Assembly: GCF_008107625.1 (NCBI RefSeq)
Contig: NZ_SDKK01000013.1
Coordinates: 1 to 64,000 of the forward strand
Reading direction: 5' to 3'
Length of the DNA stretch: 64,000 bases
From: Zoogloea oleivorans
Lineage (GTDB): Bacteria; Pseudomonadota; Gammaproteobacteria; Burkholderiales; Rhodocyclaceae
The notes beneath the pieces were generated by a model. It was not told where the DNA came from. It saw only the letters and a program-made list of their open reading frames with translations, and made no database searches. A program made the position numbers and the translations under genes. Shown here piece after piece: positions 4,886-39,852 of the stretch; position 1 is the stretch's first letter, and each line of letters opens with the position of its first letter.

Positions 4886-5179
4886 GTGGCATTTCCTTGC
4901 TCTGGATGTGGGCTCTGCTGTCATCACGTGGATAGAAGCGAAGTTACCCTTCCACTGGACCGCGGCGATGGTATTTGTCGTTACCTTGATTGTGTCAGCA
5001 ATCGTTGCAGGATCTATACCAACCGCCCATTATTCTGCCGAATAGACGACTCCTTTCCTCTTTTCGCAGAAAAGATGACTCTTTCGGAGTTCTACCGCGT
5101 CAATGCTGACGTATGCAACTGGCTCCAGAACGAGCACTCGGCACCCACGTCAATGCGAATCAAACTTTCGGAGAAATAA
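4886..5179 (+). CDS. YkgJ-family cysteine-cluster protein
   Basis: A 97-residue protein from GTG 4886. It opens with CSGCGLCCHHV and continues with CRYLDC, CRIY and FCRID, the Cys spacing of the YkgJ/Fe-S-or-zinc cluster family (CxxCxxCC). The family is thought to bind a metal cluster and is often found beside redox or modification enzymes. The start sits 2 bases behind the TerB-like gene and the stop just before the ribosome site of the next gene, so it is embedded in the operon. It is short for the family and may be just the cluster core. Confidence 0.7.
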   Translation: MAFPCSGCGLCCHHVDRSEVTLPLDRGDGICRYLDCVSNRCRIYTNRPLFCRIDDSFPLFAEKMTLSEFYRVNADVCNWLQNEHSAPTSMRIKLSEK

Positions 5180-5181
5180 TC

Positions 5182-6306
5182 ATGCCTATCCCGTTCATTA
5201 TCGGTGGCGCCGCTCTTGCGGCGGGTCTCTTTGGCGCAAAAAAAGGCATGGATGCCAAGAAGAACTATGCAAAGGCCAAGAACCTAGTCGAAGACGCACT
5301 GGAAGACATGGAGGCATCCCAAAAGCGTCTGGAGAAACAAAGAGAGAGAACATCAAAGGGCCTGAAGAAACTTGGCGAGATTCGTCTAAATGCCGAAGCC
5401 GGACTGATGCGCAGGTTTGTCGATACGATCAAGCAGGTCAACAAAGTCACCTACAAACCTATCACTTTAGGTGGTGTTCAGGTCCACATTAGCCCTCCCG
5501 ACTTGCAGGCGATGGAAGTTAGCTCCTATACAGCAGCCGATCTGCTCAAAGATGGCATTAGTGCCCTTTCTTCAGGGGTACTTACTGGCATTGGGGCTGG
5601 GGGGCTTGCATCCTCCATAGGAGTCGCTTCTACGGGTACGGCGATAGGAACTCTGTCGGGTGTCGCCGCAACAAACGCGACCTTAGCCTGGCTGGGTGGT
5701 GGCTCCCTGGCCGCCGGAGGAATGGGTATGGCGGGGGGAACAGCGGTACTCGGCGGAGCGATCGCCGGCCCTGTCATTGCTGTCATTGGCTACTCTGCTG
5801 CCAAGAAATCGGAGCGCGCCCTAAGCGACGCTTTCGAGAAAGAAGCTGAGATCCGGGAAGGAACGGAGCAGATCGAGAACGGCATTCAGGTTCTTTCCAG
5901 TATCAAAGAACGTTGTGACGAAATGTCCGAAGTCATTCTCGGCGTAGCTCAGCGCTTCAAACTCATTCTTGAAAAAGCGGAGTCGATGATGCAAGACAAG
6001 CACCAGCAGTTTGCCTTGCTGGAAGAAGAGGTTCAACGACGCAAAGAGGAAGATGACAGAAAGGGAGTGATTACCAAGGTTCTCAGCCGACTTCGCGGCA
6101 ATAAATCTGGCTACAGCTACCCTGATCCCTTTGACTTCAACAACTTCTCGGAACAGGAGAAACAACTATATTCCATGCTGACCGCCTTCGGATACGCTCT
6201 CTACTCGTTGCTCAAAGTCAAGGTACTTGACGACGATGGCGCAGTCACAGAAGAAAGCACTGCTGCAGTGGAAGAAGCTCGCGACATCATTAGGAGTGCA
6301 GAATGA
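5182..6306 (+). CDS. Gly-rich membrane/coiled-coil protein, unknown
   Basis: About 374 residues from ATG 5182, which has a good ribosome site (CGGAGAAAT); an upstream in-frame ATG lies inside the preceding gene and is unlikely. Layout: short hydrophobic Gly/Ala N-terminus (IPFIIGGAALAAGLFGA), coiled coil of roughly 60 residues rich in Lys/Glu, a long Gly/Ala/Ser hydrophobic block around residues 110-200 with glycine-zipper spacing, a second long coiled coil, then an acidic tail. This resembles a pore- or membrane-inserting protein with helical arms. It overlaps the next gene by 4 bases. I do not recognise the family. Secondary structure and context fit a membrane effector or stress complex, but that is inference. 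Confidence 0.6.
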   Translation: MPIPFIIGGAALAAGLFGAKKGMDAKKNYAKAKNLVEDALEDMEASQKRLEKQRERTSKGLKKLGEIRLNAEAGLMRRFVDTIKQVNKVTYKPITLGGVQVHISPPDLQAMEVSSYTAADLLKDGISALSSGVLTGIGAGGLASSIGVASTGTAIGTLSGVAATNATLAWLGGGSLAAGGMGMAGGTAVLGGAIAGPVIAVIGYSAAKKSERALSDAFEKEAEIREGTEQIENGIQVLSSIKERCDEMSEVILGVAQRFKLILEKAESMMQDKHQQFALLEEEVQRRKEEDDRKGVITKVLSRLRGNKSGYSYPDPFDFNNFSEQEKQLYSMLTAFGYALYSLLKVKVLDDDGAVTEESTAAVEEARDIIRSAE

Positions 6307-8178: not shown

Positions 8179-9195
8179 ATGATGACAGGTTCCAACACCA
8201 GCATTTTGATTTACCAAGCAGACGATGGCTCGGCCATGACCGAGGTCCGGCTGTCCGGCGAATCGGTGTGGTTGCGTCAGGAACAGATGGCACAGCTTTT
8301 TGGGCGGGAACGTTCCGTGGTGAGCAAGCACCTGCGCAACGTGTTTGCGGAGGGAGAACTGGATGAAGAAAGCAATGTGCAAAATTTGCACATTGCTAGT
8401 TCTGACAAACCGGTGAAGTTCTACAACCTGGACGTAATCATCTCCGTTGGCTATCGGGTGAAATCCCAGCAAGGTACTCGCTTCCGCCAGTGGGCCACCC
8501 GAACTCTGCGCGAGCACCTCAACCAAGGCTACACCCTCAACCGCCAGCGCTTTGAAGCCAATGCACGGGAACTCGAAGCTGCCCTGCAACTGGTGAAGAA
8601 GGCTTCCAAGAGCCCGGAGTTGCTGGCCGATACTGGGCGGGGGTTGGTAGATATTGTCACCCGCTATGCGCAAACCTTTTTACTGCTGCAACGCTACGAC
8701 GAGGGGCTGCTGGCCGAGCCCCGTGAGCAACCGGGAGGTGTGCTGCCGACGCTTGACGACGCGTATGCAGCCCTGGCTCGATTGAAGGCCGACCTGGTGG
8801 CTCGGGGTGAGGCCACCGATCTTTTCGCCCGCGAACGAGAGGACGCCTTTGCCGCGCTGTTCGGCAACCTGGATCAGACCGTGTTCGGAGAGCCTGCCTA
8901 TCCCAGCGTCGAAGCCAAAGCAGCCCACCTGCTCTACTTCGTGATCAAGAACCATCCATTTGCGGATGGCAACAAGCGCAGCGGCGCCTTCTTGTTTGTA
9001 GATTTCCTTAACCGCAACGGTCGCCTGCTTGATCCGACCGGTGCTCCTGTGATCAACGACATAGGGCTGGCAGCTCTGGCACTGCTGGTCGCTGAATCCA
9101 ATCCAAACAACAAGGAAACAATGATCCGCCTGATCATGAACATGCTGGCAGGAGGATACGACGCGCCGTCATCCAACAGAGGATCATGCACATGA
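8179..9195 (+). CDS. RhuM-Fic/DOC fusion protein
   Basis: 338 residues with two parts. Residues about 10-130 match the RhuM virulence-protein domain (VWLRQEQMAQLFGRERSVVSKHL and FYNLDVIISVGYRVKS), a winged-helix-like DNA-binding module. Residues about 200-310 are a Fic/DOC domain with motif HPFADGNKRSGAFLF, which has the catalytic His and a DGNKR phosphate loop between Fic and Doc types. Family members transfer AMP or phosphate to target proteins. No separate antitoxin gene (Phd-like or inhibitory-helix protein) is adjacent, so the RhuM part may act as autoregulator. It stands alone between pseudogenes and gene-free DNA. Confidence 0.85.
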   Translation: MMTGSNTSILIYQADDGSAMTEVRLSGESVWLRQEQMAQLFGRERSVVSKHLRNVFAEGELDEESNVQNLHIASSDKPVKFYNLDVIISVGYRVKSQQGTRFRQWATRTLREHLNQGYTLNRQRFEANARELEAALQLVKKASKSPELLADTGRGLVDIVTRYAQTFLLLQRYDEGLLAEPREQPGGVLPTLDDAYAALARLKADLVARGEATDLFAREREDAFAALFGNLDQTVFGEPAYPSVEAKAAHLLYFVIKNHPFADGNKRSGAFLFVDFLNRNGRLLDPTGAPVINDIGLAALALLVAESNPNNKETMIRLIMNMLAGGYDAPSSNRGSCT

Positions 9196-11333: not shown

Positions 11334-12350
11334 ATGAAAACGCAGATCAGGATCATCGGTATCGGCCGCAACGGTTGCCGGCTGCTCGACGGCATGATGG
11401 CATGCGGCCTGCGCGAGGAACTTGCCACCGATGCGTTCCCAGCCATTGCAGAAATCCGTTACATCGCCGTCGAAACCAATATCGACACGCTGGGTTGCTC
11501 CAGCGCCGATGTGGGATTTTATGTAGGGGGCGGCTTCAGCAAGGACAGCGGACCAGAAGTCCTTGAAAGAATGGCGGCGCAGACCAGGGCAATCGTCGAG
11601 CATGTCATTCATGGCGCACATCTGATCCTGCTGCTGACTGGGCTGGACGACCCGCTGGAATGCGTTGCCGCCGCCGCGCTGGCTGAACTGGGGCGAGCCA
11701 AGAACATCTTGACGCTATCCCTGGTGAGCCTGACCCCCGTCGATGTGTCGAGGTCAAATCCTGCCGCGGCAGACCTCGCCCGTATCGAGGCAAGCTCCGA
11801 TGCTTTGTACGTGTTTCCGGCCGACGACTGCGCCCCCCTCGGCAGCGCCGGCTTCAGCCCCGAAGAGGCGATCCCGACGCCCGCAGGCGACCTGATCAAC
11901 TGCGCCAATGTCCTTGCCAAGTTTCTCTGCCAGCCTCACGGGAGGCGCGTCGGCTTCGACTTTCAGGACCTTCGCACGGCGCTCATCGGGTGGGACGAGG
12001 CCTTCCGCGCCTATCCGGAACAAGCCATTCAATCCAAGCATCGTTACCTGCGCTGGGTCGCATCGCTGGATACGCCGCCTGCGGAACTCGCTGCCGCAGC
12101 TATTGCAAGCCTGCCGCTGAAAAGCGCGGCCACGGTGTTGATGTACATCGAAGGAGCCCCGAGATTCTCGATGCCCCATATCCGTAACCTCGTGGCACCG
12201 ATCGTTGCAGAGGCGCCGAACAACGCCTTCATCAAGTATTTCGTCGAAGTCGATCCGGGTATGCCGGAAGATGCCTTAGCGATCAGCCTCTACGTACGGA
12301 CCGACCAGCCAATTCCCGTCTTGGCATCCCACGCCCCTTTCGCCCCATAA
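11334..12350 (+). CDS. Divergent FtsZ/tubulin-fold protein
   Basis: 338 residues from ATG 11334 (ribosome site GAAGGAAG). It aligns along its whole length with FtsZ: first strand and T1 loop (IRIIGIGRNG), second strand (IRYIAVETN in place of FFAVNTD), helix H3, the strand before T4 (AHLILLLTG), then NILTLSLVSLTP, the T7 loop (GFDFQDLRTAL) and the C-terminal domain (LMYIEGAPRFSMPHI then AISLYVRT). The tubulin signature GGGTGTG of loop T4 is replaced by GLDDPLEC (103-110), so GTP binding is doubtful. The T7 catalytic aspartates Asp209 and Asp212 are kept. No C-terminal FtsA/ZipA tail. It is followed after 27 bases by a second FtsZ-fold gene. Clearly not the division protein; polymer or scaffold role inferred. 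Confidence 0.75.
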   Translation: MKTQIRIIGIGRNGCRLLDGMMACGLREELATDAFPAIAEIRYIAVETNIDTLGCSSADVGFYVGGGFSKDSGPEVLERMAAQTRAIVEHVIHGAHLILLLTGLDDPLECVAAAALAELGRAKNILTLSLVSLTPVDVSRSNPAAADLARIEASSDALYVFPADDCAPLGSAGFSPEEAIPTPAGDLINCANVLAKFLCQPHGRRVGFDFQDLRTALIGWDEAFRAYPEQAIQSKHRYLRWVASLDTPPAELAAAAIASLPLKSAATVLMYIEGAPRFSMPHIRNLVAPIVAEAPNNAFIKYFVEVDPGMPEDALAISLYVRTDQPIPVLASHAPFAP

Positions 12351-12377
12351 GGAATAGTTCGATGAAATAGGCCCTGA

Positions 12378-13682
12378 ATGCCGGACCCAGGCTATCGCCG
12401 ATTCGTCCACGCGACACACCCTGTCGTTTCTGACCGGACAATGTCCGCCATGAGAACGAAACCAGGCATGCGACTACTTTTCGACGACAGGATGTCGGGC
12501 GACTGTGATGTGCTTGCATGCACGTGGGACGCCGCGCAGGCATTGCTGCTGACTAGGGATTGGGACGCCCTGCACCTCGGCGTTGGACGGGGCCAGCCTA
12601 CCCGGCAGGACGGATTGGCCCTAGTGGAGTGGGCCTTGGTCCACAACCGGCTTCCTGTCCGGGTCTTGCTGCTATCGAAGTCCGTCCAGGAACGACATCG
12701 CATCGGCACCGTGCTGAGGCGAAGCGGCTGGGCCTCGGCAGATGGACGCCGCTTTCTCAGGCTGCCTGCCGCCGACGAATCCGCACCCTATTTCCCGAGA
12801 ATCCGGATCATCGGTGTGAACGGACCGGGCGGGGGTGTCACAGAACGGATGATCGCTGCACGGATCGGCGGCACCCGGATTCTCGTCGTTCAGCAGGAAT
12901 TGCCGGTCGTCGAGCAAACGTACAGCCCGGTCGCTTCGGAGGACGCAGGAACACAAGCTGGCCGGGAGATGGCTGTGGGGGATGCGTACCATCCCCGTTT
13001 GCAGGAATGGCTCGGGGATGCGGATCTGGTGCTCATCGTGCCGGGACGTCTGGATGCCGCAAGCCTGGATCTCTCCGCCACGATCGCCGCCTTCGCGCGC
13101 GAGCAGGGAATTCTGACCCTGGCCATCGTCGATCCCCGCTCGGAGAATCCGGATGCTGCGAACCCAGGCTCGGTCAGGTGCTCAGGCTTGGCGTCCCAAT
13201 GCGACGCGGTGCTCGAAATCCCGGACCACATCGCCGGAGTCACCACAAAGCGGGCCAGGACCCCTTCCCTCTTCGAAATCACGGCATACCTCGCAAGCTG
13301 CCTGGTGGACACCATGACGTTTCCGTCTTGGGTGAATCTCGATTTCATTGCATTTTGCTACGCCTTCCGGGGCACGAGCCGCATCCACACCGGTATTGGC
13401 TCGGCTGACGTTGACGATCGAGCGGTCGTGGCATCACTGGCTGCCATGCAGTCCCTTGCGCTGAACGCACCGAACCTGCGCCGGATGGATCGACTGGTTG
13501 TCGTGATTGATGCGCCGCGGGGTGGATTCGCGATGGACGAAGTTCAGGAGGTGGTGAGTACCATCGAAGCTTGCGCGTCACCTGAAGCATTCGTTACCTG
13601 TGGCAGCGTGCGAATTCATGGTGATGCGAGCCTGCACGTCATCGTAATGGCCGCGGAATTTGCCCCGCAGCCCTCCACGTGA
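12378..13682 (+). CDS. Receiver-like domain fused to FtsZ-fold protein
   Basis: 434 residues; ATG 12378 and an in-frame ATG at 12441 are both possible starts. Residues about 30-125 resemble the cyclic-phosphate-type receiver domain: MRLLFDDRMSGD, then TWDAAQALLLTRDWDAL, GVGRGQPTRQDGLALVEWAL and PVRVLLLSKS. Residues 140-430 are FtsZ-like: IRIIGVNGPGGGVTERM (T1 loop kept), DADLVLIVPG followed by a lost T4 loop (RLDAASLD), ILTLAIVDP, T7 loop VNLDFIAF (first Asp kept, second replaced by Ala), and an FtsZ-like C-terminal domain (DRLVVVIDAPRGGFAMDEV then LHVIVMAAEF). It pairs with the preceding FtsZ-fold gene. A partial decayed copy of this gene and its neighbour lies at 39222-39852. Domain assignments are by eye; the receiver call is the less certain half. 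Confidence 0.7.
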   Translation: MPDPGYRRFVHATHPVVSDRTMSAMRTKPGMRLLFDDRMSGDCDVLACTWDAAQALLLTRDWDALHLGVGRGQPTRQDGLALVEWALVHNRLPVRVLLLSKSVQERHRIGTVLRRSGWASADGRRFLRLPAADESAPYFPRIRIIGVNGPGGGVTERMIAARIGGTRILVVQQELPVVEQTYSPVASEDAGTQAGREMAVGDAYHPRLQEWLGDADLVLIVPGRLDAASLDLSATIAAFAREQGILTLAIVDPRSENPDAANPGSVRCSGLASQCDAVLEIPDHIAGVTTKRARTPSLFEITAYLASCLVDTMTFPSWVNLDFIAFCYAFRGTSRIHTGIGSADVDDRAVVASLAAMQSLALNAPNLRRMDRLVVVIDAPRGGFAMDEVQEVVSTIEACASPEAFVTCGSVRIHGDASLHVIVMAAEFAPQPST

Positions 13683-13869: not shown

Positions 13870-14694
13870 ATGAGTGTTCTGATGAAGCATATCGACCGCG
13901 CAGTGGCTGCCATTCAGGCGGCCGACGGCCTGCTAATAACGGCCGGAGCCGGCATGGGTGTCGATTCCGGCCTGCCGGACTTCCGCGGCAACGAGGGCTT
14001 CTGGGCCGCCTATCCAGCCCTCGGCAAGAGCCGAACGAATTTCCGCACAATCGCGAGCCCTGCAGCCTTCCTCACGGATCCCCATCTCGCCTGGGGTTTC
14101 TACGGCCACCGCCTGAAGCTTTATCGCGACACCCAACCCCATGCCGGTTTCGCGATACTGCAGCGAATCGCCTCACAGATGCCGCATGGCGCCTTCGTGT
14201 TCACCAGCAACGTGGATGGGCAGTTCCAGAAGGCCGGGTTTTCCGAGATGCAGGTTTGCGAGTGCCACGGCTCCATCCACCACCTGCAATGCCTATCGCC
14301 GCGGTGTGAGTCAAGCATCTGGCCGGCCGGGGGATTTCTCCCGCGCGTCGATGTCGACGCCTGTCGGCTTGAATCTCCGCTTCCGCGGTGTAGCGCCTGT
14401 GGCAGCATCGCGCGGCCCAACATCCTGATGTTCAACGATGGGGACTGGCTCGAACAGCGAACCGACAGACAGACCACCCGACTGCGCGACTGGCTGGCCA
14501 AGGTGGAGAAGCTCGTCGTGTTAGAACTGGGTGCCGGCACCGCGATTCCGACTGTGCGCCATTTCGGCGAGCGCGCCGGTGGCACGCTGATCCGCATCAA
14601 CCCGACTGAGGCGCAGATCGGCAAGCCGACGGCCGTGAGCCTGCCGCTGGGCGCACTTGCCGGCCTGGAATTGCTGGCAGGGAGGCTGGCATGA
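13870..14694 (+). CDS. Sir2-family NAD-dependent protein
   Basis: 274 residues from ATG 13870; the frame is open to GTG 13780. Sirtuin motifs are complete: GAGMGVDSGLPDFRG (about 26-40), TSNVDGQF (112-119), catalytic His133 in CHGSIHHL, zinc ligands Cys141, Cys146, Cys174 and Cys177, then RPNILMFND and LGAGTAIPT. So an active NAD-dependent deacylase or NADase is expected. It is cytosolic with no extra domain. It follows the FtsZ-like pair by about 190 bases; the gap holds protein-like sequence (HEEVRYRNVLAADHERLL) in frame with it, perhaps a decayed short gene. Sir2 proteins are common effectors in antiphage systems, but a housekeeping-type deacetylase is equally possible. Confidence 0.85.
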   Translation: MSVLMKHIDRAVAAIQAADGLLITAGAGMGVDSGLPDFRGNEGFWAAYPALGKSRTNFRTIASPAAFLTDPHLAWGFYGHRLKLYRDTQPHAGFAILQRIASQMPHGAFVFTSNVDGQFQKAGFSEMQVCECHGSIHHLQCLSPRCESSIWPAGGFLPRVDVDACRLESPLPRCSACGSIARPNILMFNDGDWLEQRTDRQTTRLRDWLAKVEKLVVLELGAGTAIPTVRHFGERAGGTLIRINPTEAQIGKPTAVSLPLGALAGLELLAGRLA

Positions 14695-14728
14695 GAAAAG
14701 TCGCCGCCATTGCGGGGGGGATCTACGC

Positions 14729-15088
14729 ATGAGAAAGGAACTGGACGACCTTCTGTGCGCACGCTATCCGGCGATTTTTCGGGACCGCCACGGATCGCGC
14801 CAGGAAACGGGCATTGGTTGGGGCTTCGAATGTGGCGACGGATGGTTCGCGATCATCGACGAGTTATGCGCCTTCATCGCCCGCCGTGCCGAAGAAACCG
14901 GCATCGACTTCAGGGTCAGCCAAGTCAAGGAGAAGACCGGGAGCCTGCGCTTCCGTTGTCTGGGCCATCACGACGAGCTCGTGTATGACAGGATCGAAGC
15001 GGCCCGGGAGCGGTCGATGGCGATCTGTGAAACCTGCGGGGAGTCGACTCTTCCGGCACATTCACATCCGCCCGTTCGGCCGCACTGA
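14729..15088 (+). CDS. Small conserved protein with C-terminal Cys pair
   Basis: About 119 residues from ATG 14729, 32 bases after the Sir2 stop. The pattern LDDLLCARYPAIFRDRHG, GWGFECGDGWFAIIDELC and VSQVKEKTGSLRFR is one I recall from small proteins on plasmids, phages and islands, without a known function. A CETCG motif at the C-terminus may bind zinc with nearby His. Probably co-transcribed with the Sir2 gene. Confidence 0.6.
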   Translation: MRKELDDLLCARYPAIFRDRHGSRQETGIGWGFECGDGWFAIIDELCAFIARRAEETGIDFRVSQVKEKTGSLRFRCLGHHDELVYDRIEAARERSMAICETCGESTLPAHSHPPVRPH

Positions 15089-15967: not shown

Positions 15968-16990
15968 CTATTCACTCGCCGGGCTCAAGCTACTTGCTGT
16001 CCCCTCGTAAAGGGCGGCGGCCTTCGTCGTCTGGCTCGTCAGCACATCGCGCAGCTTCGTCGGCCCCAGCACTTCCACATTGTCTCCGCAGCCAAGCACC
16101 CAGCGCAGCAATTGCCCAGTGTCCGGAACGGTGGCCCGCACGCGGGCGCCGAAGGCGCTGCCATCGGGCTCATCCTCGATGCGCTGATCTTCCGACAGGG
16201 GGCAGTCGCGGAGCAGTTCGGCGACATAACCGCGCACTCGCAGGTCGAGCTCGATCTGGCGGTCCCCGGCAAAATCTCCCTGCCCTTTGCGAATGGCCTC
16301 CTTCAGATTGAAGCTCTCCGCGATACGAGCCGCGCCATCGCCCAGCTTGGCACGGATGAAACGGTGCAGCGCATACATGCGCACCGGTTCGCTCTCCTCA
16401 TTCTTCAGGGCGAAAAGGTAAATTCGGGGCCCCCGCTGCAGCAGCGCCTGCGGGTGCAGCGTGGGATAGCTGAGCTTGCCGTCCCGATCCCGGTAGGCGG
16501 CCTGCAGGCTTCGCGACCGGGACAGGGCTTCGAGTGCAGCCGCCAAGGCCTCCTCGCGGATGTCGGCCGGCAGCAGGCGCTGGCTATCGCTGAGGATGCA
16601 CAGTTTGTCCTCGCCTAGGCCGTACTCGTCGCAGTCCTCCCGCAACTTGGTCCAGATCCGCTCGAACCGGCGCTCCGGCAGGGCATCCCGGATCAGGGAG
16701 CCCATCAGCCGGCGGGCGTAGTCCCACATGCGCGGGTCGACCGCCTCGGCATCGACGAGGCGGCGATAACGCAGCGGCTTGCCGCCGGGATTGACCGCCT
16801 CGATGCGACGCTCCTTCACCAGCGCTTCCAGATCACGCTGGATCGCCCGTCGGCTCGCTTTCAGTTCGTACTCCCCGGCCATGCTGGTGAGAAGCCGTCC
16901 GGAGTCCGGACAGTCTTCCTTCTTCAGATGGACCGGAATCAGGCTCTCCAGCTGTTTTAGGCGATCGATACGGATCTGGTATTCGGCCAT
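15968..16990 (-). CDS. WYL-domain transcriptional regulator
   Basis: About 340 residues from ATG 16990, preceded by a strong ribosome site (AGGAGGGTTGAGC). An N-terminal winged helix-turn-helix (about 5-65: RLLTSMAGEYELKASRRAIQRDLEAL) is followed by a WYL domain around residues 130-220 (LQAAYRDRDGKLSYPTLHPQAL, then RIYLFALKNEES and YALHRF) and a C-terminal WCX domain. WYL proteins are ligand-responsive regulators, and the BrxR/CapW/PafBC type control defence or DNA-damage genes. A palindrome (17020-17039) lies just upstream, between this gene and the divergent 181-residue gene. The frame is open well beyond 16990, but that part is antisense to neighbours. Confidence 0.85.
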   Translation of the reverse strand: MAEYQIRIDRLKQLESLIPVHLKKEDCPDSGRLLTSMAGEYELKASRRAIQRDLEALVKERRIEAVNPGGKPLRYRRLVDAEAVDPRMWDYARRLMGSLIRDALPERRFERIWTKLREDCDEYGLGEDKLCILSDSQRLLPADIREEALAAALEALSRSRSLQAAYRDRDGKLSYPTLHPQALLQRGPRIYLFALKNEESEPVRMYALHRFIRAKLGDGAARIAESFNLKEAIRKGQGDFAGDRQIELDLRVRGYVAELLRDCPLSEDQRIEDEPDGSAFGARVRATVPDTGQLLRWVLGCGDNVEVLGPTKLRDVLTSQTTKAAALYEGTASSLSPASE

Positions 16991-17019
16991 GCTCAACCCT
17001 CCTAGAAAGGCGTTCATCG

Positions 17020-17039
17020 TACGACAGATGATGTCGCAT
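17020..17039. promoter_or_regulatory. Palindrome, likely WYL-regulator operator
   Basis: TACGAC, a 7-base spacer, then GTCGCA(T). It is 30 bases upstream of the WYL gene and about 90 upstream of the divergent gene. An almost identical dyad with the same 7-base spacer stands before the AAA+ gene at 34823-34843, which itself is followed by a WYL remnant. Binding by the WYL regulator is inferred from position and recurrence. Confidence 0.5.
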
Positions 17040-26166: not shown

Positions 26167-28821
26167 CTACGTTTCTTTCGGATCGTAAGGAAATGGATCA
26201 CTGATAGCCAAAGCCAATTTATCGTCGGTAGGCTTGCGCAGGTAACTAGTCCAGTGATCGGTTGAGTTACAAAGATCGATCTCGGCGCTGGTCAGTGACT
26301 GGCGGCACGCGTCCATACGTTCCTCAACTATGTATTTCTCGCGAATGAACGACGCCAACTGCTCCTCGTCGAATGATTGAGCGAGGTAGGGGTAGTGGAT
26401 TGCTAACTCAGCTCTCCCACCACGCTCCAGTTGCGCATTCACCTTTCCGAAGAGCCGGTCCACCCGTCCAACGCGCTGCTCATTATCACCCGGCGTCCAT
26501 GCGATGCCGTAATGATGCACTTTGCGGCACTGCATATGCAGGTTCACGCCTTCCTGCAGCACCGAGGTGGTGGCCAGCACATTCGGATAAAACGGGGTAT
26601 TGAAGCCTAGGATTAGCCGCTGGCGATCCTTGACTGCACCACTGGCATAGAATGCAGGACTGTTCAGCCCTGTCAGCACGTGCCAGTGGCTCTTCCAGTG
26701 ATCCTCCCAGTTCTCGCATAGTGCCTCGAAGGTTTCTAGGGCCGCACAAAAATAGGCCAGCGCCAAGGAGTCGCTCAACTTGACCTCGATGAAGCTCAGA
26801 AAGGCTAGGTAGCGCTGCTGTACGTCGCCCGTCTTTCCGCATCTGCGGAATTCCGCATACCAGCAATACAGTTCGACGATCACCGGGCTGGCAAAGAGAT
26901 AACCATTCTTCAGATAGTGGCCGAAGCTCTCAATCAGGGCTGGGTTCCGCGCCAACAGCTCAATCTTCTGGCGAGAAGCGGGCTCCAGCTTGCAATACAT
27001 CAGCCCCCACAGAGTGGGCATCGGATTCTCAAATTCCACGCTCGAGTCTGCGACTACGCCACCGCCCCGCTTCTCAACATCGCCGCGAGCTTCGAGCGCC
27101 GCCGAGGCATACTCGTCTCGCAGCCTGTCACTTGAGCGTTTGCGGTAATAGTAGAGGTAAGTCCCCTTCTGGTAGTCGCTAGCCGGTTCGAGCAACAGCG
27201 AAAACAAGCTCTCCGGCTTACGGAGGCGCAGGCTAAAGTTTGAGCAGTCGGTGCTGCGATGAGCCCCAGTCTTTTTTACGACGAAGAGATTGGCAACCTT
27301 CGAATAAACAGCGTCGTCCGCGTCGGAATGCTCGTCGGGCGCCGGATCGTTACCGTCTAACAGGATGGCATCGCCAACTTCCTCTTCACTCTCAAAGAGA
27401 CGATTGAACTCCACACGCGACCAATGGCGGGTTTCCCACTTCTTTAGAGTCCTCTCGTGGTCCTCAGGTGCAAGTGCTTCAACGATCCTCCTGCCCATCT
27501 GCTTGTCGTAGGCCGTGTTGATGCGATTGGCAATCTCACGTACCGAAGGAATCCTCCGCACGAACACCAAGTGCTTATGTTCGTGGACATCAATTGCTCC
27601 ATTGAAAACATCTTTGGGCACGCAGCTGCTGACCAATGCGTCGTACTTGGGGTGCGCCGGTAAGTTGCCCAAGCTTTCGTGCATGCGTGCCAGCCGCCTC
27701 AGGATCTCCGTGTCGGGAGCGCCCTGAAAGTCCCGCTTTGCCACGTCTTCCTCCGAGTCTTGATCTTCTTCACAAGCCTGCACCTTGAAGGACTCAAAGC
27801 CCTCGAGATAGCCGTAGAGAAAGCGCCGGCCGTCTTTGACCTGCTGCTCTACCAAAAGCTTTTGGTAGAGCGCGAAAAACAGTTCCGCTGCAGGATCGTC
27901 AAACTTAGCTCTCACCTCCAGTTCGTTGCGGTAACTGTATTTGTCGTAAGTACCGTTCAGCCCTTTCATACGACGCAGTCGGCGCAATGCGTATTTCTTC
28001 AAGAGTTCCTCGGGCTTGGTGTGACCAACGTCAGCCACGTAGCCCAGAATCGCCGTAATGTCGTCCATCGACTTATGGCTGGGTGTAGCTGTCATTAACA
28101 GTGCGCGCGCTCCCAACCGATCATCAGCGGTGCCGAAGAACTCACGTGCTGCCTTGGCCCGCTGGGACTTTCCATCATTGTTGCGGAAGTAGTGGGCCTC
28201 ATCCACGATAAGCAGGTCAAAACCCTGCCCATCGGGCGATGCCTTCTTAAGCCTGCCGTGGATATCCTTCGCTTCCTGGGCTGCGCCCTTCAGCTTGTCA
28301 AAGTCCGCACCATGCTCGCCGCGAACCAGACCGCTCAGCGAGTAGATCGTGGTGATGAAGAGTTGGTGGGGCTGGGTGATGGACTCCTCTACGGCTTCGG
28401 CCAGCGCGTTCAAGGACCATACCAGCCTAGCCTCGTGCATTGGTTCGCCATCACACGAACGACGCACCAAGCCGTCGGACTCGCGGTAATGCGTACGGAT
28501 GAACTTGGCGTACTCCCGTTGCCAATGCCGGCAGATGTCCCGGTTGGGCGCCATGATCAGCACCCGCGCGTCGGGCTTTATCCTCCACAGCTGTGCCATA
28601 ACGCCCAAGGCCTGGAGCGTTTTTCCCGTGCCAACCTCGTCGGCGAGCAGCGCCGCACGGTACTGGTTTAGCTTGTTCCACAACCCCGCCACGCCTTCGG
28701 CTTGACGCGCGGGCATTGAAGTGTCGCCCGCCAGGTACGTCCAATCCGCACGGTCGCGATCAAAGGTAATACAGTCTGACACCTGCTTCGGCGTCAGCGT
28801 ACCCCAGCGTTCAGCACCCAT
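26167..28821 (-). CDS. SNF2-family helicase of PLD operon
   Basis: 884 residues. Superfamily 2 SNF2-type ATPase: Walker A LADEVGTGKT (59-68), motif Ia VLIMAPNRDICRHWQREY, DEAH box IVDEAHYFRNN (207-210), motif III LLMTATPSHKS; helicase C-terminal part with VLATTSVLQEGVNLHMQCRKV, then WTPGDNEQRVGRVDRLFGK (motif VI). A long insert between the lobes carries acidic segments. It overlaps the PLD gene by 11 bases and forms with it, and with the gene upstream, one operon. Translocase-nuclease pairs of this kind occur in antiphage systems such as DISARM and Dpd; this operon has neither methyltransferase nor deazaguanine genes, so it would be a different system. Confidence 0.85.
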   Translation of the reverse strand: MGAERWGTLTPKQVSDCITFDRDRADWTYLAGDTSMPARQAEGVAGLWNKLNQYRAALLADEVGTGKTLQALGVMAQLWRIKPDARVLIMAPNRDICRHWQREYAKFIRTHYRESDGLVRRSCDGEPMHEARLVWSLNALAEAVEESITQPHQLFITTIYSLSGLVRGEHGADFDKLKGAAQEAKDIHGRLKKASPDGQGFDLLIVDEAHYFRNNDGKSQRAKAAREFFGTADDRLGARALLMTATPSHKSMDDITAILGYVADVGHTKPEELLKKYALRRLRRMKGLNGTYDKYSYRNELEVRAKFDDPAAELFFALYQKLLVEQQVKDGRRFLYGYLEGFESFKVQACEEDQDSEEDVAKRDFQGAPDTEILRRLARMHESLGNLPAHPKYDALVSSCVPKDVFNGAIDVHEHKHLVFVRRIPSVREIANRINTAYDKQMGRRIVEALAPEDHERTLKKWETRHWSRVEFNRLFESEEEVGDAILLDGNDPAPDEHSDADDAVYSKVANLFVVKKTGAHRSTDCSNFSLRLRKPESLFSLLLEPASDYQKGTYLYYYRKRSSDRLRDEYASAALEARGDVEKRGGGVVADSSVEFENPMPTLWGLMYCKLEPASRQKIELLARNPALIESFGHYLKNGYLFASPVIVELYCWYAEFRRCGKTGDVQQRYLAFLSFIEVKLSDSLALAYFCAALETFEALCENWEDHWKSHWHVLTGLNSPAFYASGAVKDRQRLILGFNTPFYPNVLATTSVLQEGVNLHMQCRKVHHYGIAWTPGDNEQRVGRVDRLFGKVNAQLERGGRAELAIHYPYLAQSFDEEQLASFIREKYIVEERMDACRQSLTSAEIDLCNSTDHWTSYLRKPTDDKLALAISDPFPYDPKET

Positions 28822-30742
28822 AACCGCATGCCTCCCGGAGCCGCTTCATGTATTGCGCGTTGCCATGGATCTCTGGTGGCAAGTACACGGCCTGCTTCGG
28901 CTTCAGCTTCAGGCTCGCCCACTTAACGTTCTTAGGCGTTGACGTCCGCGCGTACTTCGCCCGGTGCTTGGCATAGGCCTCCAGCGCCACTACGTGCAGC
29001 GAATCCACCTCCCGCAGCATAAACCACTTGAATACGGTGTTATCTCGGGAATCGGCGACCTGCTCGTTCACCTTGCTCACCAGCTCCTGCATGCTTCCGG
29101 GACACACGAACAACAACCTCTCCAGCTCGTCCATTGAGCCGATCTCGCGCAGCCGCTTGCGGAACTGCTCGAAGGCGTGAAACAGGCGGAAGTAGCTCAG
29201 TCCGCCGCTTGCACCAACAGGTAGCGCCACTGGTTCGTCGTCGGGCACGTCGTCATGCCGTAGCACCTTGCGCAGGCGGTGGGTACCGCTGGCCCCGGGT
29301 TTAGCCTCTTTGACCAGATCGTTCAACAAGTCCTTCAATGAATCGTAGCCCTGAGCCCGCCGATAGTCCGGCTCGGCTTCCAGCACTAGACCACGGTACT
29401 CAAGGTTGCCGTCGCGCCAGACTTCGTAGCTGTGATCCGCCAGCAGTGCTTCGTTGTCGGCCAACGGTAGTCGGATAGACTCCAGCGGCCAGAATCCTTC
29501 ACTCTGCCGCCCCTTCCAGCACAGTGGAACCTGCTTCTTCACCCCCGGCAGGCGCAGGCGGTAACTCGCACCCTGAATCGCCTCAAACAACCGCCCCTGC
29601 ACCTCATAGCGACCCTGCTTCCAGTCGAAGCAAACTTGCAGCTCGAAGGGCAAGGGATATAGCGGTGGATCCAACTCATCGTCCTCCAGCATTTCTTCGG
29701 TCCCGAATTCCTTCTCGCCGATCTTCAGCGGCTGACCTGCGATCTGAGTCTTCAGTGCCACGTTCAGCAAGATCCCGGCTTCGACGTTACGCAGCTCGAA
29801 GCTGGCTGCTCCGGGCTCCGTGCAGTTCCATGAGCCCACAGCGAGGCGCGCCTGGCGGCCAGAAGCCAGCCAAAGCTTGGCGTGGGTCATCTCGATTTCA
29901 TCCGCACGCGGCGAGGGTCGATCATGGAATGTGAGAACCTTCGAGCAGAGCAACTCCGCGATCGCATCCGTCCACGCCGTGCGCACGTAACGGTTTCCAA
30001 CACGATCTGGCACTATGGAAAATTTCAGAGCCTGACCAGCCAACTCCTGCACCCGCCCTAGCAGGCTCGCTAGATCACGCGAGAAATAAGGTGACCACAC
30101 CGTCAGACGATCCGCCTGCGTGTCTGCCAGCAATTGCTGCAAAAAGCTTTGGCGCTCGAAGCTGTGCGCGAAACACCAATCTTCATCGCAGCCCTCGAAG
30201 CGTCGACGCACGCCCAAAGCCTTTGCCTCGTCCACGCCTGCCGCCGTCAAGAGTGGGTCGAAAAAGCGCTTGACCTGCTGGTACTGCCTATTGTTACTGA
30301 TCGATCGGAATACAAACACCTCCTGGTTTCGCCCCCATCCGCTAATGCTTAGGTTTGCACTGCCAGCACCCAGCACCATGCGGCCGTTCTTGTCTTCCAA
30401 AAAGATCACCTTAGGGTGGAACAGTGATTCCTTTCCAAACCATTTCTCTCTCACACCCAGCCGCCCCGGCAGCACGCCATGCACCGCAACCGCCGTCCGC
30501 TTGAGCTGGTCAGCTTCCAGCATTCGCAGGTCACAAAACACGCGCACGTCGACACCACTCTCGGCCAGCTGCTGCTGCATGCTCTCATAGTCCATGCGGT
30601 TGGCTGGTGGGTCAGCGTCAAGCAGGATGGGCAGCACGTGGGTCTCAAAGAAGGGTATGCCCAGGTTGAAGGTGGTGAACCAAGCCCGCCTCAGCTCGCC
30701 CAACCCCCGCACTTGCTGGCGAAACTCGTCTAGGAGCTTCAT
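28811..30742 (-). CDS. PLD-superfamily nuclease of helicase operon
   Basis: 643 residues from ATG 30742, which overlaps the upstream stop (ATGA). Two HKD half-sites are visible: His109-x-Lys111 with GSAN (127-130), and His287-x-Lys289 with GSWN (303-306). This is the phospholipase D-like nuclease arrangement in one chain. After about residue 340 comes a 300-residue region without recognised domain. It likely cuts DNA or RNA under control of the SNF2 partner encoded next. Cytosolic; no signal peptide. Confidence 0.85.
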   Translation of the reverse strand: MKLLDEFRQQVRGLGELRRAWFTTFNLGIPFFETHVLPILLDADPPANRMDYESMQQQLAESGVDVRVFCDLRMLEADQLKRTAVAVHGVLPGRLGVREKWFGKESLFHPKVIFLEDKNGRMVLGAGSANLSISGWGRNQEVFVFRSISNNRQYQQVKRFFDPLLTAAGVDEAKALGVRRRFEGCDEDWCFAHSFERQSFLQQLLADTQADRLTVWSPYFSRDLASLLGRVQELAGQALKFSIVPDRVGNRYVRTAWTDAIAELLCSKVLTFHDRPSPRADEIEMTHAKLWLASGRQARLAVGSWNCTEPGAASFELRNVEAGILLNVALKTQIAGQPLKIGEKEFGTEEMLEDDELDPPLYPLPFELQVCFDWKQGRYEVQGRLFEAIQGASYRLRLPGVKKQVPLCWKGRQSEGFWPLESIRLPLADNEALLADHSYEVWRDGNLEYRGLVLEAEPDYRRAQGYDSLKDLLNDLVKEAKPGASGTHRLRKVLRHDDVPDDEPVALPVGASGGLSYFRLFHAFEQFRKRLREIGSMDELERLLFVCPGSMQELVSKVNEQVADSRDNTVFKWFMLREVDSLHVVALEAYAKHRAKYARTSTPKNVKWASLKLKPKQAVYLPPEIHGNAQYMKRLREACGYGC

Positions 30743-31632
30743 ACAGCCCCCCGCAACCCGGACAAGAGGTGGCGAAACTGAGGAATATAGTACTGATTTA
30801 CCCAAGTGCCCAAGGGCCGTTCCATCATCTTGGGCAGCGGACGAGTGCGTACGTCGATCTTGAGTTGTCTGCCCCCCAACAGCCTCAGCCAGGGCGACTG
30901 GCCACGTGCTTCCATCACCTTGTTGTGGTAATTAATCAGCCGCTTCACTTGCTGGCGCACGTCTGCTCCTTGAGCCAGCTTGAGCAGTTCGTCCAGCCGC
31001 TCCCTGGCGGTACCCGAAATTTCCGCACGCATTGATGCATTGGTCTCGATATGTGTCGCCTGATTGGTCAGCGTGTGCTCGTCACGGCCCAGCGCCTTCC
31101 AAATTGCAGTAACGTCGTCCAGAGAATGTGACTTTGCAGAGAGCAGCACATCCAACAGCAGATCCAACTCGCCGAGTAAGGGCTCGAGGACACGCACGTT
31201 CTCGAGCTTGTCCTTGTCTGCCTGCGCAAGGTTCGGGCATTGTGCTGCTAGTGCAAATACCTCTGCAGTGGGCCGACGGCAATCATCGCGCATCCATTCC
31301 TGGTTAAGCACCTCATACAACGCGCCTGGCGCGCCTTTGTTCAGCTCGGTGACCTCAAGCCAGAAGTCGCGTGCATATGTACCCACACCCGTAGGGGAAC
31401 TGAATGCATTTACAAACTCCTGCCTCAGCTTCTTGGGGACACAGCTGAATTGGTGCTCTGGAACGCGGCGGCCATCGGCTAGCACCGTGGTCAAATACGC
31501 AAGCAGCAATTTTTTCAGTCCGACCAGTGGACCTGAATCCGCCAATAGCTGTTTCTGAACCTTGTGCCACAGTGGCCGCGATTTTGGCAGCGCATAGTCA
31601 TAGTTGCTATCAAAAAACTCCATCTGCACTAG

Positions 31633-34892: not shown

Positions 34893-37016
34893 ATGCGCCG
34901 TCGTCGCCGCTTGAACCTGCATCCGACCACCCAGACAGACGAGTCCAGTGCCTTTCGCAAGCTCAGCAGGCTGTTTTTCCTTCGTCTAATGGTGAGCGTC
35001 CGCTGGGAGCCCGAGCGGCTCGAGAGCATTGTTGAAGATAGCGATTGCCTCCCATTGCTGGGTATCCCCGGGGCAGAACTGGATGCTTGCCCTTCACGCA
35101 GTGCAGCCCATCTGAAACGCATTTTGCGCAGCCAGCTCACCACCCTGAATGAGCAAGCTCCCGGGTTGGAGGGCACTCCACTTGGCAGAAACGTCACTTG
35201 GCTCGGCGAACGCCTCAGGCTGTCGGCGGTTGATTGCCGGATACTCGAATTGGTCGTTCTGATCAATGCCTACCGCCCGCTGCATGATGCCGTAGCGACA
35301 CTGCGCCTTAATGGAACCCGGCAAGGGATCTTGAAGCTCGTCGCCATCCTGTGTGGCCAGCCGCTTCGGTCTGTGACCAAGGCGTTCGTTTCGGGCGGAG
35401 CACTGACGGAGAGCGGGCTGCTCAAGCTCGAGAGTGGTTTTTCCGACTTCGAGGACCGTTTCAAGTTGCCTGATGGACTTGAGGATGCGCTACTGGCGCC
35501 TTATGCCAAGCCAGAGGCGCTCCTTGAACGTTTTTTCCGTACGGCATCTCCTGCGAAGCTTCAGGCCGAGGACTTCAGCCATCTGAGGAGCGATTTCAAT
35601 CTTCTCCAGCCCTTGCTGAAGCAGGCCGCCGCGAAGCAGGTGAAGGGTCTGAACATCCTTTTGTACGGTGAGCCCGGGGTAGGCAAGTCCGAGTTTGCGC
35701 GGCTGATCGCCGAAGCCGCCGGGCTTGAGGTATTTGAAGTCAGCAATGCCAACGACGAAGGCGAGGCCCTGAGCGGACGGGGGCGCTTCGCCTCCTACAG
35801 GCTGTGCCAGCGGGTGCTGGCCCAAAGCAAGGGCAACGTGGTGCTGTTTGACGAGATCGAGGACGTGTTTCCGTCGAGCGGTGGTGGGCTGATGGAGTTG
35901 TTTGGCCTCGACGAGAGCCCGAGCAAGGGGACAGGCAAGGCTTGGGTCAATAGGGCGCTCGAAACGAATCCCGTTCCGGCAATCTGGATTTCCAACCGGG
36001 TGCATCATATCGACCCTGCCTACCTGCGCCGTTTCGACTTCGCCGTGGAAGTGCCCAAGCCCCCGAAAGCCGTGCGTGAGCGGGTGGCCAGGAAGTATTT
36101 CGACGGCACCCGCAGCAGTCCGGAGTGGATCGATCAGCTCGCCGACTGGAGTGAGGTCACCCCTGCCCAGCTGGAAAAGGCCGCCCGGGTTGCCCGCCTC
36201 GTGAACCCCCGTTCCGGTGGCGAAGTTGAGGCTGTCGCCGAGCGCACCCTGCGCTCCTCGGCCCATCTCCTGCGACAAGAGGTGCCCAGAAAGCTGCGGC
36301 ACACCACCGGCTACCGCCTCGACTGTCTCAACACGAATATTGAGGTGGCTCCGTTGATTGCCGGCCTGCAGGCCAGGCCCCGCGGCACCTTTTGCTTTTA
36401 CGGCCCCCCGGGCACCGGCAAGACGGCATTGGCCCAGCACATCGCCAGCGCCATCGACCGTCCGCTGCTGGTGAAGCGGGCATCCGACCTGCTCTCGAAA
36501 TGGGTCGGCGAGGCCGAACAGAACATCGCGGCCATGTTTCGGGAAGCCCGGGCCGAGGGAGCGGTGCTGGTGCTCGACGAGGCGGACAGCTTTCTTTCCG
36601 ACCGTCGTGGGGCCAGTCAAAGCTGGGAGGTCAGCCAGGTGAATGAGATGCTGACCCACATGGAGGACTTTGACGGCATCTTCGTGTGTACGACGAACTT
36701 GTTCGAGCGCCTCGATGCGGCAGCCTTACGTCGTTTTGCCTTCAAGCTGCGCTTTGGCTTCCTGAAGCCAGAGCCGCGAATCACCCTGTTCGAGGAGACC
36801 TGGGCCCGCCTCAACGCGAAGGCGGGCAGGGTTCCGCTCGAGGTCCAGCAGCGGCTGAAACGCCTGGATAAGCTCACGCCCGGGGACTTTGCCGCCGTGG
36901 CACGCCAGCACGTGCTGCTGGGCGACCGGCCGGAGGCGGGCGTGCTGATTGCCGCGCTGGAGGAGGAGTGCCGGGTCAAGGATGGCGCCGCCCAAGGCAT
37001 GGGCTTTGTGATCTGA
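34893..37016 (+). CDS. Double AAA+ ATPase
   Basis: 707 residues with two AAA+ modules. Module 1: Walker A GEPGVGKS near residue 258, Walker B VVLFDEIED near 316, Arg-finger region AYLRRFDF. Module 2: Walker A GPPGTGKT near 503, Walker B VLVLDEAD near 559, AALRRFAFKLRF. The N-terminal 200 residues are helical with no known domain. The arrangement resembles Cdc48/spastin-like bacterial ATPases that remodel proteins. It is single, divergent from the Cas4-like gene, preceded by the palindrome at 34823 and followed by a convergent WYL-regulator remnant. In-frame starts downstream (35 codons) are also possible. Role probably protein unfolding or complex assembly; target unknown. Confidence 0.8.
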   Translation: MRRRRRLNLHPTTQTDESSAFRKLSRLFFLRLMVSVRWEPERLESIVEDSDCLPLLGIPGAELDACPSRSAAHLKRILRSQLTTLNEQAPGLEGTPLGRNVTWLGERLRLSAVDCRILELVVLINAYRPLHDAVATLRLNGTRQGILKLVAILCGQPLRSVTKAFVSGGALTESGLLKLESGFSDFEDRFKLPDGLEDALLAPYAKPEALLERFFRTASPAKLQAEDFSHLRSDFNLLQPLLKQAAAKQVKGLNILLYGEPGVGKSEFARLIAEAAGLEVFEVSNANDEGEALSGRGRFASYRLCQRVLAQSKGNVVLFDEIEDVFPSSGGGLMELFGLDESPSKGTGKAWVNRALETNPVPAIWISNRVHHIDPAYLRRFDFAVEVPKPPKAVRERVARKYFDGTRSSPEWIDQLADWSEVTPAQLEKAARVARLVNPRSGGEVEAVAERTLRSSAHLLRQEVPRKLRHTTGYRLDCLNTNIEVAPLIAGLQARPRGTFCFYGPPGTGKTALAQHIASAIDRPLLVKRASDLLSKWVGEAEQNIAAMFREARAEGAVLVLDEADSFLSDRRGASQSWEVSQVNEMLTHMEDFDGIFVCTTNLFERLDAAALRRFAFKLRFGFLKPEPRITLFEETWARLNAKAGRVPLEVQQRLKRLDKLTPGDFAAVARQHVLLGDRPEAGVLIAALEEECRVKDGAAQGMGFVI

Positions 37017-38642: not shown

Positions 38643-39221
38643 CTTTCTCACATGACTATATTTACTTTTTCACCAAATTAGCACATTACTCGTATGCTCA
38701 GAACTTGGTCGTGAGCCCCATGAAGAATGAGGAAGACAAGTTTCGAAACCTACCTCAGCCACCCTATGCGCCACCTTGGAACATGCTGACCGTCGCTTTC
38801 CGAGCAGACTCGGGGCTTGTGTGATCTGCCAATTGTGGAGCGGGAAGGTCGGGGGCATTGGCAGCGGAAGAAATTGTTGATTGAACCTCAATCGTTACTT
38901 TAAGTGAGCAGTTCTTCGACGTCATGGAAGCTCAAGCTGAAGTGGAATACAGCTACACCGCATGGCTAATAGCTCCGCTGGGACACGGTGGCGGGCGTCG
39001 TGGACAAACTCAGCATTCATGCCAAATTTTGCCGGCTAAGTCGGAGATTGAGCTGGTGAACCACTGGCCAGCCACTAAGTTGTCGGAGCCTCCCAATGGA
39101 CAGTTCGTCGGATGCGACTTCCAGGCTATCCGCACCTCGCTCTGTTACCCCTGCGCCATGGGCTCGACGGCTCCGAACAATCGCCCCAGTAAGAGCTCAT
39201 ACCTCCGCATAGTGGCACCCT
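38643..39221. other. Gene-free stretch
   Basis: About 580 bases with short, unsupported frames only. Its right end leads into the decayed copy of the FtsZ-like genes, so part of it may be further, unrecognisable remnant of the same copy. Confidence 0.4.
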
Positions 39222-39852
39222 GCATACGCCGCCTGCGGAACTTGCAGCAGAGGCTTTAGAAAACCTACCCCTGAGAGATCCGGCAACGGTGCTGACATGC
39301 GTGTATCGAATCCGCACCGAAGATTTCGATGCCCACTATCGGCAACCTCGTTAGGCCATTCAATGCCGAGATACTGGGATGCGCCTTCATTACTTAATGC
39401 CTCGGAGTCGATCCCGGCAGGCAGGAGGATGCCCTGGCGGCAAACCTATACATGCGGACCGATTATCCTGATCAGGCTGGGCGACTAGCCCCACGCATCT
39501 TTCACCTAGCAGGGACTGATACGCTGAAAAATCGCTGGATGCCGAACCCGGGCTACCGCTCATTCGCCCACGCGACACATCCTGTCGTCTCGGCCCAGAC
39601 AATGTCTGCCATGAGAACGAAACCAGGCATGCGACTACTTTTCGACGACCGGATGCCGGGCGACTGTGATGTGCTTGCGCGCACGTGGGACGCAGCACAG
39701 ACCTTGCTGCAGAGCAGGGATTTGGATGCCCTGCACTTTGGCGTTGGACGGGGCCAGCCCACCCGGCAGGACGGATTGGCCCTTGTGGAGTGGGGCTTGG
39801 TCCACAATCTGCTTCCTGTCCGGGTCTGGCTGCTGTCGAAGTCCGGTACCTG
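39222..39852 (+). pseudogene. Decayed second copy of FtsZ-like gene pair
   Basis: This stretch mirrors 12060-12690. First comes a frameshifted piece of the first FtsZ-like gene (TPPAELAAEALENLPL, then ATVLTCVYRI, then EDALAANLYMRTDYP). Next, from ATG 39539, comes the first 105 codons of the receiver-FtsZ gene, nearly identical at DNA level (PGMRLLFDDRMPGDCDV, GVGRGQPTRQDGLALVEW and PVRVWLLSKS). The match stops abruptly at about 39852, where sequence resembling an IS66 transposase end begins. The copy cannot encode the full protein. Confidence 0.85.

Follow-up and report, generated by a model that had tools for sequence, protein, structure and literature searches.

Why would a bacterium that possesses an ordinary FtsZ maintain, just ahead of a sirtuin gene, two adjacent genes for FtsZ homologues from which the guanosine triphosphate (GTP) phosphate loop is gone? 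This question is raised by a 64,000-nucleotide stretch of the Zoogloea oleivorans genome (assembly GCF_008107625.1, contig NZ_SDKK01000013.1, positions 1 to 64,000), to which we refer as the window and which lies on contig C44 of the genome designated G000 in our set. The two genes, here called A and B, evolve under purifying selection, A retains the T7 (synergy) loop of FtsZ, and FtsZ-like genes recur beside sirtuin, JAB-like and WYL genes in other bacteria. We tentatively read A as a decoy that would offer phage inhibitors the surface they attack on FtsZ, and the sirtuin as its effector, a mechanism that we infer.

The FtsZ-like pair and its loops

The features of the pair are as follows.

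11334-12350, + strand: gene A, an FtsZ-like protein of 338 amino acids, GTP loops gone, T7 loop present (TIGR00065, structure model, alignment)
11640-11663, + strand: T4 position of A, GLDDPLEC replacing the tubulin signature (sequence, alignment)
11949-11978, + strand: T7 (synergy) loop of A, VGFDFQDLRT (sequence)
12378-13682, + strand: gene B, a receiver-like N-terminus joined to an FtsZ-like domain, 434 amino acids (TIGR00065, profile comparison with PDB)
12441-12797, + strand: cREC-like stretch of B without the cREC catalytic motif (Pfam, 13.6 bits, E = 0.11; hhalign; a three-sequence profile speaks against it)
13044-13070, + strand: T4 position of B, GRLDAASLD (sequence, alignment)

Both genes lie where a preliminary description, made from the sequence, had placed them, 27 bases apart on the + strand, and the sirtuin gene follows at 13870-14694. 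The start of B is uncertain and might be at 12441 or 12468; the first start codon listed in the related genome G018 matches window position 12441. In a profile search against FtsZ, the NCBIfam ftsZ family TIGR00065 matched residues 2-317 of A (E = 2.4e-11, 43.6 bits) and residues 140-411 of B (E = 1.6e-9, 37.6 bits). Both scores are far below the equivalog cut-off of 295.2 bits, by which neither protein belongs to cell-division FtsZ. Pfam FtsZ_C matched B below its cut-off (E = 0.00088), the Pfam scan of A matched no family, and a profile built from B and its counterpart in G018 matched FtsZ chains in PDB with a best E-value of 3e-13. The structure model of A, built from four sequences, reached a predicted local distance difference test score (pLDDT) of 62.6 and a predicted template modelling score (pTM) of 0.51. 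With this model as the query, FtsZ was found in each of the best 50 Foldseek matches listed (best E = 2e-17, template modelling score about 0.4-0.5) and in each of the 50 VIA matches listed (best Z 18.9, root-mean-square deviation 8.4, 237 residues aligned). Thus, both proteins have the fold of the FtsZ-tubulin superfamily, as described previously, A by model and sequence and B by sequence, because the model of B attained a pLDDT of 33.3 only. An ordinary FtsZ (TIGR00065, 372 bits) is encoded elsewhere in G000, on contig C78, and A and B are therefore accessory. In a phylogenetic tree, A joins its homologue from genome G021 (support 100), and B joins next (support 70); the branches are long, and we draw no history from them.

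We compared the loops with those of 11 FtsZ proteins of related genomes that were selected for carrying the GGGTGTG signature. In the alignment, the T4 segment reads GMGGGTGTGAAP in the comparison proteins, GLDDPLECVAAA in A and GRLDAASLDLSA in B, so the reported replacement of the signature loop in both proteins holds. The T1 segment changes from GVGGAGGNAV to GIGRNGCRLL in A and GVNGPGGGVT in B, and in both proteins, apart from the lost T4, little of T3, T5 and T6 is left. The T7 segment, VDFQDVRTAM in the comparison set, reads FDFQDLRTAL in A and LDFIAFCYAF in B. As the preliminary description had it, A contains both T7 aspartates, whereas B lacks one of them and retains the first Asp alone. 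Across four homologues, D209, Q211, D212, R214 and T215 are invariant at T7.

For each protein, including the accessory FtsZ-like proteins of other bacteria considered below, we tallied the near-invariant FtsZ columns that are retained, in the order GTP loops, T7, elsewhere; the p value compares T7 with the GTP loops.

A: 11/41, 5/8, 39/148; p = 0.09
A homologue of G021: 10/41, 5/8, 34/148; p = 0.047
B: 9/41, 2/8, 42/148; p = 1
G163 protein: 5/41, 8/8, 29/148; p = 3e-6
Marinomonas protein: 31/41, 2/8, 30/148; p = 0.01
Thiodictyon protein: 34/41, 6/8, 93/148; p = 0.6
Pseudoalteromonas HL-AS2 protein: 30/41, 4/8, 47/148; p = 0.2
Photobacterium damselae protein: 37/41, 6/8, 69/148; p = 0.25

Retention of T7 while the GTP loops were lost is clear in the G163 protein and marginal in A; the Marinomonas protein displays the reverse pattern, with the GTP loops retained and T7 lost. 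The C-terminal peptide (DIPxxLR/DIPAFIR), which we take to be a docking peptide, is present in the G163, Thiodictyon and Pseudoalteromonas proteins and absent from A, its G021 homologue, B and the Marinomonas protein. A and B are FtsZ mimics that, because the GTP phosphate loop is gone, are probably incapable of FtsZ-style polymerisation. A co-polymer with split active sites, one of the arrangements proposed in the preliminary description, is not supported because T4 is absent in A and B alike and neither chain can supply the phosphate loop. The replaced loops themselves are partly shared between A and its G021 homologue (38%): 7/10 positions of T1 and 7/12 of T4 are identical, compared with 94/254 outside the motifs, so the old GTP pocket may have a new use.

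The N-terminus of B had been likened to cyclic-phosphate receiver domains. The only Pfam family listed for it is PF20274 (cREC_REC), aligned over the full profile at 13.6 bits (E = 0.11), below the cut-off of 27, so that B falls outside this family. In hhalign, the region matched three true cREC proteins (E = 1.7e-4, probability 50%). Conversely, in a search of 9619 open frames with a profile of the same three proteins, B of G018 scored at noise level (6.3 bits, tenth), and B of the window was not among the 12 best matches listed; because of this result, we dropped the assignment of B as a true cREC. The cREC motif SLDHDLG reads HLGVGRG in B, so the catalytic motif is gone, and the N-terminus appears to be cREC-like at most and non-catalytic. 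A true cREC gene (86 bits) is located on the same G018 contig, about 9 kb behind B.

Kin copies, neighbouring genes and accessory FtsZ genes elsewhere

Strong matches to A were found in 4 of the 100 genomes searched, all among the 23 genomes of the genus sample: G000, G018 (93%), G010 (67%) and G021 (41%). The remaining matches in these 100 genomes were weak (E = 3e-15 or worse), and the A profile matched none of 398 other genomes of the order at E = 1e-17. B was detected in G000 and G018 only (2/100), with 95% identity between the two. G018 has the A, B, sirtuin order of the window, preceded by IHF-beta-like and exonuclease genes. A without B is found in G010, where it carries a stop and is followed by a JAB-like gene, a WYL gene, a tandem AAA+ gene and a sirtuin gene (68%), and in G021, where its neighbours are a dual-specificity-type phosphatase gene on one side and, on the other, a gene that matched no Pfam family, with a WYL gene about 6 kb upstream. 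A scan of contigs with the A alignment (two peptide patterns, of small reach) returned three loci, namely, those of G018, G010 and G021. Searches with A and B yielded no relatives among the viral contigs or, at E = 1e-5, among the plasmids, and a search with A yielded none among the phage records; B matched 5 phage records, unannotated and faecal, at 23-28%, mostly in the FtsZ part.

The window contains a decayed second copy of the pair, in the same order (38924-39856) and near tRNA-Lys (40663-40738). Given that the B copy is 83% identical to B and the A copy merely 38% identical to A, the two halves differ in history or rate.

38924-39472, + strand: A', decayed copy of the C-terminal half of A, four stops, 38% identity
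39539-39856, + strand: B', decayed copy of the receiver-like part of B only, one stop, 83% identity over residues 1-106

Thus, the intact pair is present in two closely related genomes, along with the decayed copy in the window. This goes against the refuting finding named in the preliminary description, that homologues never occur as a pair, and bears on the survey of co-occurrence suggested there: pair and sirtuin occur together in G018, whereas in G010 and G021 A is without B. Outside the genus, each accessory FtsZ locus read contains a single FtsZ-like gene, so pairing is not the rule.

Both A and B are under purifying selection. Between G000 and G018, the ratio of nonsynonymous to synonymous substitution rates (dN/dS) is 0.42 for A, 0.25 for B, and 0.12 for both the sirtuin and the tandem AAA+ protein, a comparison built on few changes; between G000 and G010, it is 0.32 for A and 0.20 for the sirtuin. 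In a Fisher test of synonymous against other changes, p was 0.005 for A and 2e-5 for B with respect to G018, and 3e-15 for A with respect to G010.

Downstream of the pair, the following genes were identified.

13870-14694, + strand: Sir2 family protein, 274 amino acids, 187 bases behind B (PF02146, E = 3.3e-19; 96% in G018, 68% in G010)
15968-17023, - strand: WYL-domain regulator, 351 amino acids of a longer open frame scanned (WYL, E = 4e-9; WCX, E = 1e-13; 61-62% in G010 and G021)
34893-37016, + strand: tandem AAA+ protein, near the sirtuin in G018 (AAA, E = 1.3e-43, two stretches; 96% in G018, 41% in G010)

The Sir2 neighbour that had been noted is a member of its family (70 bits against a PF02146 cut-off of 24). 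Its distance from the tandem AAA+ gene is 20 kb in the window, and the two are close in G018, as if other genes intervened later in the window. The defence-type surroundings of the pair, in an island that looks mobile, are borne out by the PADLOC candidates PDC-M09A (5113-6306) and PDC-M27C and M27B (26167-30805), the latter two in the interval that separates the sirtuin from the tandem AAA+ gene; a RhuM-Fic protein is encoded at 8179-9195. A further sirtuin belonging to the clade of the window sirtuin (63%; C40:152256-153023) is encoded in G000, with no FtsZ-like gene within the 19.5 kb read. By eye, an ECGDGW stretch is common to two small proteins, one encoded behind the window sirtuin (14726-15088, no Pfam match) and the other beside the WYL gene of G163 (L108, 6066-6446).

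With the sirtuin as the anchor, we inspected 43 other loci: 6 plasmid records, the best of 94 that matched; 32 loci found by the order search, among them the second sirtuin of G000; and 5 found by the class search. Some of these loci are cut short by contig ends. Two contain an FtsZ-like gene, in both cases directly before the sirtuin. On a Thiodictyon plasmid, an annotated ftsZ with retained loops lies 80 bases before the sirtuin gene; in G163 (L108, 8330-9280), the distance is 2 bases, and the protein has lost T4 and retains T7 and the C-terminal peptide. Assuming that 2 of 4000 genes are FtsZ-like, the probability of two such immediate neighbours among 43 loci is 2e-4, and that of mere nearness is 0.016. 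In another of these sirtuin clade members, on a Sphaerotilus sulfidivorans plasmid (L047, 7989-10560), the sirtuin gene is followed by two genes, one for a macrodomain protein of the MavL-like type, annotated DUF4804 and matching PF24754 with E = 4e-121, and one for a dual-specificity phosphatase, an arrangement that looks as though the sirtuin made adenosine diphosphate (ADP)-ribose marks or signals.

The JAB-like gene of G010, used as a second anchor, matched 6 plasmid records, of which two, those of Thiodictyon and Marinomonas, have an FtsZ-like gene nearby; the stretches of the other four contained none at E = 1. On the Marinomonas algicola plasmid, a "hypothetical" protein encoded 3.7 kb behind the JAB-like gene matches the FtsZ profile with E = 9e-36; the start of its gene overlaps a PcfJ-type gene (E = 4e-8) by four bases (L117, 8872-11453). 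JAB-like is a weak name, given that Prok-JAB matched below the cut-off in G010 and Thiodictyon (E = 0.02) and no Pfam family matched the G163 and Marinomonas genes. In 369 genomes of the class, a set without a positive control, the JAB-like gene had no match. The Marinomonas FtsZ-like protein, in turn, retrieved 113 plasmid records, most of which carry an FtsZ label or can be recognised as FtsZ, and we read four of these loci. In three Pseudoalteromonas plasmids, an extra FtsZ gene is located directly behind a WYL gene, among reverse-transcriptase, HNH, DUF262, nuclease or integrase genes; these WYL-FtsZ pairs (L128, L129 and L130) retain the GTP loops, with T7 changed to NVDLxDF, and this accessory form may have a wider distribution than the Zoogloea pair. 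The fourth, a Photobacterium damselae plasmid, encodes an extra FtsZ with most loops retained and no annotated WYL or sirtuin gene within the stretch read. A 491-amino-acid protein of G047, which matched Tubulin with E = 3e-48, is an ordinary FtsZ that carries an extension.

Overall, WYL genes were found in 9 of the 11 accessory-FtsZ loci read, identified by Pfam in the window, G018, G010, G021 and G163 and by annotation in Thiodictyon and the three Pseudoalteromonas plasmids; none was seen in the Marinomonas and P. damselae stretches. These loci are not independent, and the count comes without a background rate for WYL in islands. A and B represent one form of an accessory-FtsZ gene of islands and plasmids. 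Such a gene frequently has a WYL regulator in its vicinity and sometimes adjoins genes for a sirtuin, a JAB-like protein or tandem AAA+ ATPases.

Possible roles: decoy, brake, scaffold or passenger

If A is a decoy, the bait would be its retained C-terminal face, with the synergy loop; on real FtsZ, this face is bound by the host's own inhibitors SulA and MciZ and, by prediction, by phage T7 Gp0.4. A phage FtsZ inhibitor would be captured by A, or by a complex of A with B, and its capture would switch on the sirtuin, an enzyme using nicotinamide adenine dinucleotide (NAD), with defence as the outcome; B could be a partner, a sensor or a second bait. The general form of this proposal, in which a dedicated pseudo-FtsZ of an island serves as bait free of GTP and polymerisation, keeps the attacked face and triggers a sirtuin, as a decoy form of effector-triggered immunity, is somewhat more doubtful.

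Several observations point in this direction. T7 was retained and the GTP loops were lost in A (p = 0.09), its G021 homologue (p = 0.047) and the G163 protein (p = 3e-6), A and B are under purifying selection, FtsZ-like genes directly precede same-clade sirtuins in Thiodictyon and G163 (2/43 loci), an additional FtsZ-like gene came to light in Marinomonas through the JAB-like anchor, and the PADLOC candidates provide an island context. There are precedents as well: T7 Gp0.4 is predicted to bind the synergy-loop face of FtsZ, and CapRel immunity is activated by the Gp0.4-FtsZ complex and not by either protein alone (PMC13423816); SulA, MciZ and MinC bind the same face (PMC11938149); and for other conflict systems, a decoy role of inactive enzymes has been proposed (PMC7159879).

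Other observations weigh against the decoy. The T7 signal for A taken alone is marginal (p = 0.09), and B lost most of T7 (2/8). In Marinomonas, the pattern is reversed (GTP loops 31/41, T7 2/8), and the Thiodictyon FtsZ is intact, so a single decoy logic fails to fit all the proteins. The replaced T1 and T4 loops, partly shared with the G021 homologue, may instead serve a new ligand. The G010 copy of A carries a stop, 41 of the 43 sirtuin loci have no FtsZ-like gene, the neighbours of this sirtuin clade are mixed, and A, B and the sirtuin matched no family of PADLOC-DB 2.0.0 at E = 0.001.

We consider it unlikely that the proteins act as a division brake, whereby the mimics would join or block host FtsZ filaments and division would stop, with growth arrest, once the module is on. 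The retained T7 face of A would suit such a role, as would the Marinomonas and Pseudoalteromonas proteins, which, with the GTP loops retained and T7 altered, resemble one-faced subunits, and the C-terminal peptide retained in the G163, Thiodictyon and Pseudoalteromonas proteins. This peptide, however, is missing from A, its G021 homologue, B and the Marinomonas protein, and the contact made by A would be with the N-terminal face of FtsZ, a site that has been argued to be poorly suited to stopping filaments (PMC11938149); this weakens the case for A as a simple cap. A scaffold gated by a ligand, that is, co-assembly of A and B without GTP on a nucleotide or ADP-ribose-type signal tied to the sirtuin chemistry, is improbable. 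It would account for the partial conservation of the replaced T1 and T4 loops and for the weakly cREC-like N-terminus of B, given that cREC domains are linked to NAD/ADP-ribose systems and sirtuins (PMC9503650, PMC7824862) and that G018 has its true cREC gene about 9 kb behind B; but the cREC assignment is below the cut-off, with the three-sequence profile at noise and the catalytic motif absent, and G010 and G021 have A without B.

Equally improbable is that A and B are divergent FtsZ copies decaying in islands, with no shared function and with neighbours that reflect island traffic. The stop in G010, the decayed A'B' copy, the narrow distribution of A (4/100 relatives, 0/398 others) and the mixed sirtuin neighbours all fit such passengers, whereas the dN/dS values below 1, significant for A and B, and the recurrence of the same neighbours reached from independent anchors do not. 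Several accessory FtsZ genes are on plasmids, as would be expected of a TubZ-like segregation filament of a mobile element; such filaments need the GTP loop, however, and with A and B lacking it, this explanation appears highly improbable. The decoy reading, although less likely than not, is the one that we favour.

The pair and known systems

Neither the FtsZ superfamily, nor families of divergent FtsZ proteins, nor the decoy idea is new. Our searches of open-licence PMC papers brought up no description of FtsZ homologues that lack the GTP loop and neighbour sirtuin, WYL or JAB-like genes, an absence limited to these papers. Whatever the mechanism, a GTP-loop-less member of the tubulin superfamily on which purifying selection still acts, and which is encoded repeatedly in the vicinity of sirtuin, JAB-like, WYL and AAA+ genes, is an island component undescribed in that literature.

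Cell-division FtsZ (TIGR00065, PF00091/PF12327) and the pair are homologous over nearly the whole core, and A shares with it the fold and the T7 loop; unlike it, A and B lack GGGTGTG, most of T3, T5 and T6, and the C-terminal peptide, and they accompany a separate ordinary FtsZ. FtsZl1 and FtsZl2 (PMC2875224) are likewise divergent members of the FtsZ-tubulin superfamily, but they were found through, or keep, the loop GGGTG(S/T)G and have other C-terminal regions; A and B are without both. Among conflict systems, rare FtsZ/tubulin members have been described, along with the inactive enzymes proposed as decoys, but their partners are MoxR-vWA or a TRAFAC GTPase (PMC7159879), neither of which appeared among the Pfam matches listed for those window genes that were scanned. 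Phage neighbourhoods also combine a sirtuin with a nearby cREC or cREC-like domain; these have been proposed to act in RNA repair with 2H, Nudix and ligase genes, and FtsZ is not mentioned in the part of that source considered (PMC9503650).

The closest parallel to the proposed role of A is CapRel(Ebc), which senses the Gp0.4-FtsZ complex: in both cases, the synergy-loop face would be the meeting place of phage and immunity, but CapRel(Ebc) is a toxin-antitoxin fusion that employs the host's own FtsZ, whereas the window would encode a dedicated mimic together with a sirtuin (PMC13423816). If the decoy reading is true, bacteria hold a sacrificial copy of a division protein as bait for viral proteins. 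Decoys occur in plant immunity, and the pair would be their bacterial counterpart, with Gp0.4, FtsZ and CapRel as the version that uses the host's own FtsZ.

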